Source of the DNA: a virus
Strand: one strand, 5' to 3'
Length of the DNA: 38,522 nucleotides
IMG/VR virus record: IMGVR_UViG_3300046511_000282
Coordinates: 1-38,522 of that record
Position 1 is the stretch's first letter; every line of letters starts with the position of its first letter. Position numbers and translations under genes: made by a program. The notes under the pieces are model-generated. The model had not been told where the DNA came from, searched no databases, and saw only the letters and a program-made list of their open reading frames with translations. Shown here piece after piece: positions 12,891 through 36,102 of this stretch.

Positions 12891-13087
12891 CGCCCAACCA
12901 GTCGCGGTCTGGTCAACACCCGCTGCATCTCCCCGAGGCCGTCGCGTAAGGCCCTAAACACGCTGCGTCGTGCCGATCCGTCTGCGGCTGTGGCTTCCGA
13001 CTTTCGTCGCAACGGGCAATCGAGGCTCCAAGAACCGCGTCGCGGTGAGGAGCCCTTTTCCCCGCACTTGCGATGAAAGGGCACACC
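12891..13087 (+). other. Gap before the coat gene; open frame without a start codon
   Basis: The region before the coat gene has no recognised gene. In the same frame as the preceding 44-residue protein, the sequence after its TAG stays open for 61 codons to a TGA at 13074. That TGA overlaps an alternative coat start (ATG at 13073). Readthrough of the TAG would add a basic segment (SRKALNTLRRADPSAAVASD). High GC makes such open frames common, so this is only noted. Confidence 0.25.
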
Positions 13088-14290
13088 ATGCCCGCGACCA
13101 ATACCTTATTGACGATTTCGATGATCACCGCGAAGGCGCTGGCCATCCTCCATCAGCGCTGCAACATCATCGGCGCCGTGAACAGGCAGTACGATGATTC
13201 GTTCGCCAACTCCGGCGCCAAGATCGGCACCACACTCCGCATCCGTCTGCCGGTGCAATACACGGTCAGCACGACGCCAGCGCTCAGCCTCCAGAACACC
13301 GTGGAGAACTACGTCTCCCTGCCGATCACCAACCAGTACCACACCGACTTCAGCTTCAGCAGCAGCGAACTCACACTGAGCATTGATGACTTCTCGGCCC
13401 GCTACATCGAGCCGGCAATCGCGGTGCTCGCAGCGAAGCTCGAGTCCGACTTCGTCAACCAAATGTGGCCCACGGTGTGGAACCAGGTCGGCACCGCAGG
13501 CGCAGCACAGACCTTCAAGACCGTGCTGCAGTCCCGCAAGCTGCTGCTCGACAACCTGACGCCACAGTCGAAGCAGTGGCTGTTGCGCATAAATACGCAG
13601 GACAACGTCGATATGGTGGACAGCCTCAAGGGCCTGTTCCAGTCCTCGACCGAAATCCGCACGCAATACACCGACGGCGTGATGGGCCTCTCAGCCGGCT
13701 TCGAGTGGGCCGAAAACACGCACCTGACCACACAGACACGCGGCGCCGAAAGCGGCGCCTACACAACGGCCGTCGTCGCCAATCAGAACACCGGCAGCAC
13801 ACTCGCTGTGGTGACCGGCACCGGGGCAGGCAACGCGGGCGATGTGTTTACGATTGCGGGCGTCTACCGCGTGCATCCCGAGACCAAGATCAGCTCGGGC
13901 ATCCTGCAGCAGTTCGTGCTGACCAGCGCCTACGCAGGCGGCGCCGGCAACATGGCGATCGCACCGGCGATCAATGGCGTGAGCGGCAGCCCGCAGCAGA
14001 ACGTCGCCACCACGGCGAACGCAACCGCGGCGCTCACGTTCGCCAATACCGCATCCACCGCGACCGGGCTTTCGTTAGCCTTTCATCCCGATGCTTTTAC
14101 CTTCGCCACAGCCGATCTTGTCATGCCGGGCGGGGTTGACATGGCTTCGCGCGTGGTGAAAGACGGTATCTCGATGAGGGCTGTTCGTCAATACTCAATC
14201 TCCGACGACACCTTTCCTATAAGGATTGACGTCTTGTGGGGCTCCGCATCGCTTCGGCCCCAACTCGCGTGCAGATTGGTTGCCAATTAG
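13088..14290 (+). CDS. Major capsid protein, P22 coat type
   Basis: The 400-residue product resembles the P22 gp5 coat family. It starts ATNTLLTISMITAKALAILH, followed by VNRQYDDSFANSGAKIGTTL and LRIRLPVQYTVSTTPALSLQ, the opening seen in this family. The middle has TDFSFSSSELTLSIDDFSAR and IEPAIAVLAAKLESDF. A telokin-like inserted domain is plausible in the Ala/Thr-rich part at about 225-330. The end reads SMRAVRQYSISDDTFPIRID, then VLWGSASLRPQLACRL. AAAGGG sits 7 bases before the ATG; an in-frame ATG at 13073 would add five residues. The adjacent scaffold, portal, gp4- and gp10-like genes support the call. Confidence 0.92.
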   Translation: MPATNTLLTISMITAKALAILHQRCNIIGAVNRQYDDSFANSGAKIGTTLRIRLPVQYTVSTTPALSLQNTVENYVSLPITNQYHTDFSFSSSELTLSIDDFSARYIEPAIAVLAAKLESDFVNQMWPTVWNQVGTAGAAQTFKTVLQSRKLLLDNLTPQSKQWLLRINTQDNVDMVDSLKGLFQSSTEIRTQYTDGVMGLSAGFEWAENTHLTTQTRGAESGAYTTAVVANQNTGSTLAVVTGTGAGNAGDVFTIAGVYRVHPETKISSGILQQFVLTSAYAGGAGNMAIAPAINGVSGSPQQNVATTANATAALTFANTASTATGLSLAFHPDAFTFATADLVMPGGVDMASRVVKDGISMRAVRQYSISDDTFPIRIDVLWGSASLRPQLACRLVAN

Positions 14291-14318
14291 GTTTGCTGTT
14301 TGCTACGAGGATAGTTAT

Positions 14319-14350
14319 CATGCTCCTTCCTTGAAACAGGAGGGAGCATG
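14319..14350 (+). promoter_or_regulatory. Hairpin covering the ribosome binding site and ATG of the HNH gene
   Basis: CATGCTCCTTCCT (14319-14331) pairs with AGGAGGGAGCATG (14338-14350) over 13 bp with one G-T wobble and a 6-base loop. The right arm contains the Shine-Dalgarno AGGAGG and the start ATG itself, so both are buried when the RNA folds. It could also end coat transcripts, but there is no T-tract. Confidence 0.7.
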
Positions 14351-14935
14351 ACCTGCATAGTCGAAGGGTGCGGTGGAAGCGCGAGAGGGCACGGCTATTG
14401 CTCGCGGCACTACACACAGTGGCGTCGGCATGGTGACCCGCTTCATCAGGAGCGGCGCTATCACAAGGGGATGCCGGCAGAAGAGCGCTTCGAAGCCTAT
14501 GTCGAGAAAGGGTCTGGGCCGAAAGCCTGCTGGGAATGGACGGGCGGGAAAATCTCCACTGGCTATGGGATGTTTCACCCCGCGCCTAAGCAATCGGTCC
14601 TTGCGCACCGCTATGCCTGGGAACAGGACCGGGGACCAATTCCGGTAGGCCAGTTCATCCTGCACCACTGCGACAACAGATCATGCGTCAATCCGAGACA
14701 TCTGTTCTGCGGCGACCAGCAGGCGAACGTCGATGACATGATCAATAAGGGCCGTAATCGCACCCCTGGTCCGCCACCGGGAACCCAAAACCACCAGGCG
14801 AAACTTACTGAGGAAATTGTGCGGAAAATCCGCGCATCTTCGATGGCGGCTCGGATCCTCGCGAAACGGCATGGCGTGTCGCTGTCTCTGATTTACGCCG
14901 TCAAGCAGCGCCGCCTCTGGGCACACATCGAATAG
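14348..14935 (+). CDS. Free-standing HNH homing endonuclease
   Basis: The 195-residue product has an N-terminal zinc-like CIVEGCGG...GHGYCSRHY segment with WRRHGDP. The HNH_3-type core follows: CWEWTGGKISTGYGMF, AHRYAWEQDRGPIP, ILHHCDNRSCVNPRHLFCG and NVDDMINKGR. The HHCDNRSCVNPRHL string holds the catalytic His and metal ligands. The C-terminus has a helix-turn-helix-like unit (LTEEIVRKIRAS...ILAKRHGVSLSLIYAVKQRR) of the kind these enzymes use for site binding. It sits directly after the coat gene, breaking the normal head-gene order, so it is most likely a mobile homing gene. Translation is probably held back by the hairpin over its start. Confidence 0.92.
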   Translation: MTCIVEGCGGSARGHGYCSRHYTQWRRHGDPLHQERRYHKGMPAEERFEAYVEKGSGPKACWEWTGGKISTGYGMFHPAPKQSVLAHRYAWEQDRGPIPVGQFILHHCDNRSCVNPRHLFCGDQQANVDDMINKGRNRTPGPPPGTQNHQAKLTEEIVRKIRASSMAARILAKRHGVSLSLIYAVKQRRLWAHIE

Positions 14936-14947
14936 GAGCACCATCAC

Positions 14948-15352
14948 ATGCCAACCGCTGTCTCGTATCCAACAGGCCGCACCGTCAACTTCAACGTCGG
15001 TCAGGGTTTGCACGACATCTCGCTGCTGGCGAGTGGCAACGGCTGGTCTGCTGCCACCATCACGGCCCACGCCGGAGGAACGCAGGCCGCAGCCACGCCG
15101 GTCCGCAGCGCCTGCACATTGATTGCCGTCTGTGCCACCGCTGCCGATAGCGTCGTGCTGCCGCCCGCTGTGGGTGGGCAGTTGCTGTGGATCACCAACG
15201 CTGGGGCAGCGTCCTCGCAGATATTTGCCGCTCCCGGTGCTGACACGATCAACGGCGTGGCGAACGGCACCGGCATCGCGCTGGCGAACGGCAAGTCGGT
15301 CACGCTGATGTCTCCGCTGGCCGGCGCCTGGTTCAGCATCCTGTCGGCGTAA
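14948..15352 (+). CDS. Probable head decoration or minor structural protein
   Basis: The 134-residue protein is rich in Ala, Gly, Thr and Val with no charged clusters, typical of an all-beta virion protein. It starts PTAVSYPTGRTVNFNVGQGL and has CTLIAVCATAADSVVLPPAV, then LLWITNAGAASSQIFAAPGA. The last part (TINGVANGTGIALANGKSVT, then LAGAWFSILSA) is like the ends of fibre or decoration trimers. AGGAG lies about 9 bases before the ATG. Its place between coat and gp4-like genes suggests capsid decoration; no family could be named. Confidence 0.6.
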   Translation: MPTAVSYPTGRTVNFNVGQGLHDISLLASGNGWSAATITAHAGGTQAAATPVRSACTLIAVCATAADSVVLPPAVGGQLLWITNAGAASSQIFAAPGADTINGVANGTGIALANGKSVTLMSPLAGAWFSILSA

Positions 15353-35624: not shown

Positions 35625-35653
35625 AAACTAGGGGTTAATAACCCCTCCGTCAA
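35625..35653 (-). promoter_or_regulatory. Leftward early promoter (PL-like)
   Basis: On the minus strand TTGACG (35653-35648) and TAGTTT (35630-35625) are separated by exactly 17 bp. Operator 1 (35631-35645) fills 15 of those 17 bases, so repressor binding would block polymerase. The expected start of transcription falls at about 35618, the A of the first gene's ATG. Confidence 0.65.
35631..35645. promoter_or_regulatory. Repressor operator 1 (left)
   Basis: GGGGTTAATAACCCC is perfectly symmetric about 35638, and symmetry extends one base further on each side (A/T). It shares the GGGG-N7-CCCC form with sites at 35663 and 36120. It lies inside the spacer of the leftward promoter. Confidence 0.7.
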
Positions 35654-35662
35654 GAATTATCG

Positions 35663-35677
35663 GGGGCGTTTAGCCCC
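35663..35677. promoter_or_regulatory. Repressor operator 2 (left)
   Basis: GGGGCGTTTAGCCCC is the second copy of the 15-bp palindrome. Its centre is 32 bp from that of operator 1, about three helical turns, so both sites face the same side of the DNA. It ends at the first base of the repressor gene's stop codon. Minus-strand sequence ACTAGGGGCTAA is close to ACTAGGGGTTAA of operator 1. Confidence 0.6.
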
Positions 35678-36102
35678 TAGTTGTGTAAATACAAGCCCTC
35701 AGATGCTTCAGATGTGTTGGGGGGAGAACCCGTGCCAGGAGTGTCGAGCTTGTGGGGTTCTAGCCGACGGATCGCCAATTCCGGATGGTCCCGCGCCAGT
35801 ATTCCAGCCAACTCCGGATCAAGCCCAGTGAGCCTGCCGCCAACCACGTAGTCCAACGAGATTCCGAGAGCATGGAACATGCGCCAAGCCAGTCGGAGGC
35901 CGGGATCGGATTTGCCGTTCTCTATATTGCGTAGCGTCGTCATATCTACGCCCAATCTGCGGGAAAATTCGATGCGGCTGACCCCGTGCGCCTCTCGCGC
36001 CCACATGATGCGGCGTCCGCGTGCTTCGCGTTGCTCGGGGCTATCTCCGGGCGCTCGTGTCTTTTGAGGCCGTGCTGCCATACCGTCTAAAACGCTCACC
36101 AT
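35677..36102 (-). CDS. XRE-family CI-type repressor
   Basis: The 141-residue product has an N-terminal basic arm (AARPQKTRAPGDSPEQREA). An XRE helix-turn-helix lies at about 27-88: RGRRIMWAREAHGVSRIEFS, RRLGVDMTTLRNIENGKSDP, GLRLAWRMFHALGISLDYVV. The C-terminal ~50 residues are short and have no LexA-type peptidase domain, so SOS self-cleavage is unlikely. The gene is bracketed by GGGG-N7-CCCC palindromes at 35631, 35663 and 36120, the expected operators. It faces a Cro-like gene across a 118-bp gap, as in lambda. An ATG at 36081 is an alternative start. Confidence 0.85.
   Translation of the reverse strand: MVSVLDGMAARPQKTRAPGDSPEQREARGRRIMWAREAHGVSRIEFSRRLGVDMTTLRNIENGKSDPGLRLAWRMFHALGISLDYVVGGRLTGLDPELAGILARDHPELAIRRLEPHKLDTPGTGSPPNTSEASEGLYLHN

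Follow-up and report, generated by a model that had tools for sequence, protein, structure and literature searches.

In phage T4, a hairpin hides the ribosome-binding site (RBS) of the homing endonuclease genes I-TevI, I-TevII and I-TevIII on mRNA initiated upstream, and mRNA from a promoter a short way upstream is too short to form it (PMC2988022, PMC3014915). Likewise, the free-standing homing genes mobE of Aeromonas phage Aeh1, which encodes an HNH protein, and segB of T4 have RBS-hiding hairpins, together with promoters that give transcripts missing the 5' arm (PMC2988022). The start regions of T4 genes e and soc are hidden in long transcripts; for gene e, promoters within the structure's 5' strand yield transcripts in which the start region is free (PMC3014915). 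Among homing genes, control by a hairpin plus an internal promoter is on record for a small number of T4-type cases.

Here we describe a comparable arrangement in the window, the whole stretch of 38,522 nucleotides that was analysed (IMG/VR virus record IMGVR_UViG_3300046511_000282). Its HNH gene shares with the three I-Tev genes an RBS-hiding hairpin, and a predicted promoter may likewise yield transcripts that lack the 5' arm. The I-Tev genes are intron-encoded, lie inside early or middle units and use T4 middle and late promoters, whereas the window gene is free-standing, follows the coat gene in a phage of P22 type and has a predicted sigma70-like promoter. We treat the T4 late promoter as a feature of several T4 examples that stands outside the control logic proper. 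The likeness to mobE and segB, both single cases in T4-type phages, lies in the free-standing homing gene and its RBS-hiding hairpin, and with mobE also in the HNH type; e and soc differ in being ordinary, non-homing phage genes. On the best reading, the I-TevI/mobE logic would here operate outside T4, with host-type promoters, and would have been assembled repeatedly in one capsid slot.

A hairpin buries the start of an HNH gene behind the coat gene

The coat and HNH genes of this soil phage belong to an extended run of late genes on the plus strand (terminase, portal, scaffold, coat, tail). The features around the hairpin are as follows.

13073 to 14290, plus strand: P22-type coat (major head) gene, directly upstream (PF11651 P22_CoatProtein, 9.6e-33; phrog_283, 2e-62)
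14318 to 14331, plus strand: 5' arm of the hairpin, the putative silencing arm (inverted-repeat and fold analysis)
14338 to 14351, plus strand: 3' arm of the hairpin, with the Shine-Dalgarno sequence (SD) at 14338-14343 and the ATG at 14348-14350 (inverted-repeat and fold analysis)
14348 to 14935, plus strand: HNH_3 endonuclease gene, 195 aa, a probable free-standing homing endonuclease (PF13392, 3.1e-12; phrog_3593 HNH endonuclease, 2e-29)
14948 to 15352, plus strand: 134-aa gene with no function assigned, found directly behind the coat gene in some HNH-less relatives

The PF13392 match scores 46.3 bits against a gathering score of 24.8, placing the protein in the HNH_3 family. Its gene begins 57 nt after the coat gene. 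No start codon precedes the ATG at 14348 within the 195-aa ORF, and this is the sole usable ATG of the HNH_3 gene. The sequence-only reading had described a 13-bp hairpin at 14319-14350, directly behind the coat gene, with a single wobble and with both the SD and the ATG buried. The hairpin is real, follows a coat gene that ends at 14290, has one G-U pair and holds both AGGAGG and the ATG in its 3' arm; its extent has to be corrected to 14 bp at 14318-14351, with a 6-nt loop. Folding of the coat-HNH junction (14290-14380) gave a minimum free energy of -36.7 kcal/mol (z = -3.65), which none of 200 dinucleotide shuffles equalled. The 38.5-kb window has six short-range inverted repeats measuring 12 nt or more; this one has the highest complementarity (93%), with a short loop. 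The Rfam 15 covariance models, applied at gathering score, matched no family in the window. Terminator prediction found no site between the coat and HNH genes, so the HNH start should be present on coat read-through mRNA. A NusG-like antiterminator gene, a possible regulator of the late operon, lies at 2-733 on the plus strand, directly before the terminase gene.

Burial of the SD is conserved among homologues

Relatives of the HNH protein at 74-100% identity yielded eight distinct leaders, the window counted in. All eight bury the SD in a stable stem, with opening costs of 18.6-24.3 kcal/mol. Compensatory changes in related phages, which had been proposed as a check, were found at two stem pairs: pair 5, G-C in the window, reads A-U in L007 and L009, and pair 7, which the window has as U-A, reads C-G in L009 (U-G in the HNH-less locus L058). 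No homologue whose leader was compared keeps the gene and loses the pairing, the case named beforehand as refuting. Two basal pairs are broken in L008, L011 and L013, and in these and L009 the ATG lies at the foot of the stem or just beyond it, the SD still being buried. Thus burial of the SD is conserved among homologues and that of the ATG only partly: an ATG within the stem holds for the window and fails in these four.

The HNH-less loci L058/L059 and L086 retain the upstream block and the hairpin, with TGTCAT as the -10 box. We count this against a role in locking the HNH gene; it fits decay after loss of that gene, and may represent a single event. In many other HNH-less loci the SD of the next gene stands immediately 3' of the coat stop codon, so that the HNH gene probably brings the leader with it.

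Unrelated HNH genes in the same slot also have buried starts

Coat searches of viral and bacterial genome collections, plus other loci, gave 141 distinct post-coat sequences, of which 29 have an HNH gene directly behind the coat, a patchy presence. Sorted by 7-mer overlap, the 29 leaders form 19 groups that have no sequence in common. Start codons were chosen from the protein motif and the SD, independently of the hairpin; opening costs refer to the region from -14 to +3, and 157 SD-bearing genes of the same loci served as controls. The median opening cost was 20.6 kcal/mol for the HNH leaders versus 7.1 kcal/mol for the controls, with 26 of the 29 above the control 95th percentile, and a hairpin covers the SD and/or the start in nearly every one of the 19 groups. 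HNH relatives in other contexts exceeded that percentile in only 7 of 72 cases (Fisher 1.2e-14 by leader, 6.9e-10 by group), and burial as a general rule of all HNH_3 genes was therefore rejected. In phiGT1 the HNH gene stands behind a capsid gene and has a hairpin; burial of its start is weak.

The window and L031 have coats that are 93% identical, HNH proteins that are 47% identical and unrelated leaders, indicating that different HNH genes filled the slot and that the pairing is not merely inherited sequence. Furthermore, the stems contain 51 G-U pairs versus 6 A-C mismatches, a tally partly biased by the folding program, which points to pairing at the RNA level. The arrangement of hairpin and probable promoter, mostly alike in about 19 unrelated leaders, seems to have been repeatedly selected.

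A hairpin just behind the coat gene could instead terminate the coat mRNA or stabilise its 3' end and have nothing to do with HNH control, and some HNH-less loci (L039, L066, L040) do have hairpins at this place. We regard this explanation as very improbable. By intrinsic-terminator criteria (a GC-rich stem followed by a T run) the hairpin has no T run and is not called a terminator, and the tail genes downstream run in the same direction. Moreover, the position of the stem follows the HNH start rather than the coat stop, and the first genes of HNH-less loci lack buried starts (26 first post-coat genes, opening cost at most 14.6 kcal/mol).

A predicted promoter lies where the 5' arm would be clipped

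Promoters were scored with a hand-written sigma70-type matrix, and the host's own sigma preference may differ from it. The best sigma70-like match in the window leader consists of these elements.

14293 to 14298, plus strand: predicted -35 box TTGCTG (10.2 bits for the match, equalled in 0 of 100 shuffles)
14316 to 14321, plus strand: predicted -10 box TATCAT, 17 nt from the -35 box and overlapping the foot of the 5' arm (sigma70-type matrix)
14328, plus strand: predicted transcription start, 7 nt past the -10 box; the 5' arm would lose 10 of its 14 nt in this transcript

Opening the start region in the window would cost 21.6 kcal/mol on the read-through RNA versus 5.9 kcal/mol on the short transcript. 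Both boxes are invariant in all eight distinct homologous leaders, while their flanks drift. The sequence-only reading had pointed to a promoter within the loop or stem, by analogy with T4. A predicted promoter does overlap the 5' arm, but it is of host type: the T4 late promoter TATAAATA is absent from the window leader, which has TTGCTG-17-TATCAT.

Across the slot, the best promoter score averaged 9.8 in HNH leaders versus 1.9 in 499 control leaders. Stricter tests were run because the HNH leaders are AT-rich. Scores restricted to starts between -40 and -15 beat dinucleotide shuffles (Fisher combined 2.7e-9, 19 groups) as well as the opposite strand of the same DNA (Wilcoxon p = 1e-4); p-values of single leaders against shuffles were modest (0.002 to 0.66). 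In 13 of the 19 groups the unrestricted best match predicts a start at -20 to -26 from the start codon, a place within the 5' arm or beyond it. Median opening cost was 20.3 kcal/mol on read-through RNA; the predicted short transcripts, which lack the 5' arm, resemble ordinary genes in their folding, with a median of 7.0 kcal/mol. In 22 of 27 the cost falls by more than 5 kcal/mol. Cutting a stem brings such a fall by itself, and the informative part is that promoter-like sequence is placed at the cut. L031, L041 and L102 show weak promoter matches where the arm would be clipped, and for L007, L055 and L073 the best-scoring match stands further 5', before the hairpin or its arm.

A hairpin might silence the HNH gene on capsid mRNA with no promoter involved, the promoter signal being a by-product of AT-rich leaders and expression coming from breathing of the hairpin, RNA processing or coupling to coat translation. 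Shuffled versions of these leaders do reach about 4-8 bits, and the stem in L103 begins about 9 nt past the coat stop, so that a terminating ribosome could open it. The position-restricted scores, which beat both shuffles and opposite strand, and the invariant boxes of the window family tell against this explanation, which we consider unlikely while giving it more weight than any other alternative.

The inverted repeat overlaps the -10 box, and I-TevI is a proven autorepressor (PMC2988022). The repeat might thus be a DNA operator, bound by the HNH protein or another dimer and repressing the promoter, as I-TevI does at its operator. We think this improbable as the whole explanation, since the 3' arm is tied to the SD or start in 26 of 29 leaders and G-U pairs far outnumber A-C mismatches in the stems. 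Nor do the leaders show any similarity above shuffles to the coat 3' end, the closest candidate for a homing site that an operator might resemble (Fisher p = 0.89). An operator role in addition to a translational lock is possible.

A repeated phage-specific promoter was also considered and rejected, the upstream block TTTGCTGTTTGCTACGAG occurring once in the window. Searches with a 29-nt leader motif found only contigs already known to carry the window-type HNH gene, and those with the 14-mer CTGTTTGCTACGAG returned 71 stretches, probably by chance.

A proposed lock on the HNH gene

We consider it likely that the hairpin acts in cis to lock the translation of a free-standing HNH homing gene inserted in the late operon, and that a sigma70-like promoter clipping its arm bypasses this lock. 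On coat read-through mRNA, pairing of the 5' arm to SD and start codon would keep the endonuclease from being made. The sigma70-like promoter, overlapping the 5' arm with its -10 box, would start a short mRNA inside the arm; this mRNA could not form the hairpin, so that dedicated transcripts alone would be translated. Comparative support for this mechanism, all of it drawn from sequence, is strong. Computation shows the hairpin, conserved among homologues and recurring in unrelated leaders, and an excess of promoter-like signal at the clipping point; an active promoter, a block to translation and homing by the protein are what we infer. Expression would probably be early or constitutive, with silence on late capsid mRNA. 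The T4 lock delays expression to late times, whereas the sigma70-like promoter predicted here, if active, would reverse that order.

Silencing of the I-TevI kind, as first suggested for this gene, gains support from the conservation of the hairpin with compensatory changes and from the unrelated HNH genes of the same slot with RBS-hiding hairpins of their own, the function itself being presumed. A wider proposal is more tentative, and we give it somewhat less than even weight: the capsid slot may have been colonised repeatedly by different HNH genes, each carrying a host-type promoter fused with a hairpin over its RBS or AUG; expression would be early or in the lysogen, with silence on the abundant late capsid mRNA, in reverse of T4, and with L100 and L241, and perhaps L212 and L185, leaderless at a buried AUG.

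Recurrence in about 19 unrelated leaders at one non-T4 slot suggests selection on the wiring of selfish genes in a highly transcribed operon. The same-slot leaders are natural replicates for asking whether silence on capsid mRNA makes insertions tolerable, and a promoter clipping an RBS hairpin is a simple signature for searching other phages.

Exceptions and variant arrangements

L212 and L185 have no SD and no strong burial of the start. In L202 the HNH gene stands behind an intron-bearing coat gene, a nearby hairpin misses the SD and there is no good promoter. A group I intron (RF00028, 63 bits) at 2561-2842 splits the L202 coat gene near codon 377.

The HNH genes of L100 and L241 have no SD and lie about 500-560 nt past the coat stop. 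A stem holds the start codon, its loop contains a -10-like box, and transcription is predicted to begin at the ATG itself, which suggests a leaderless-mRNA variant. In another HNH group (L309, L317, L322, L330, L342, L356) the promoter straddles the hairpin, with the -35 box near the 5' arm, the -10 box TAAAAT in the loop and the SD just outside the stem. The seg43 gene of Aeromonas phage 25, whose hairpin lies just upstream of the SD and not over it (PMC2988022), resembles the group of L317 and L356 and also L202; in the window, by contrast, SD and ATG are inside the stem.

In L051, L053, L056, L105 and L106 the intact coat gene is closely preceded by a partial, diverged coat-like fragment (residues ~13-65, ~47% identical). 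Elsewhere in the window, a minus-strand gene at 31921-32841 matches phrog_314 'homing endonuclease' (1.8e-18), has no Pfam match and adjoins a RecT-like gene. The longest inverted repeat of the window, AACTAGGGGTTAATAACCCC, at 35626-35682, has 20-nt arms that are 80% complementary and lies near an HTH_3 repressor-like gene (35677-36102, minus strand).
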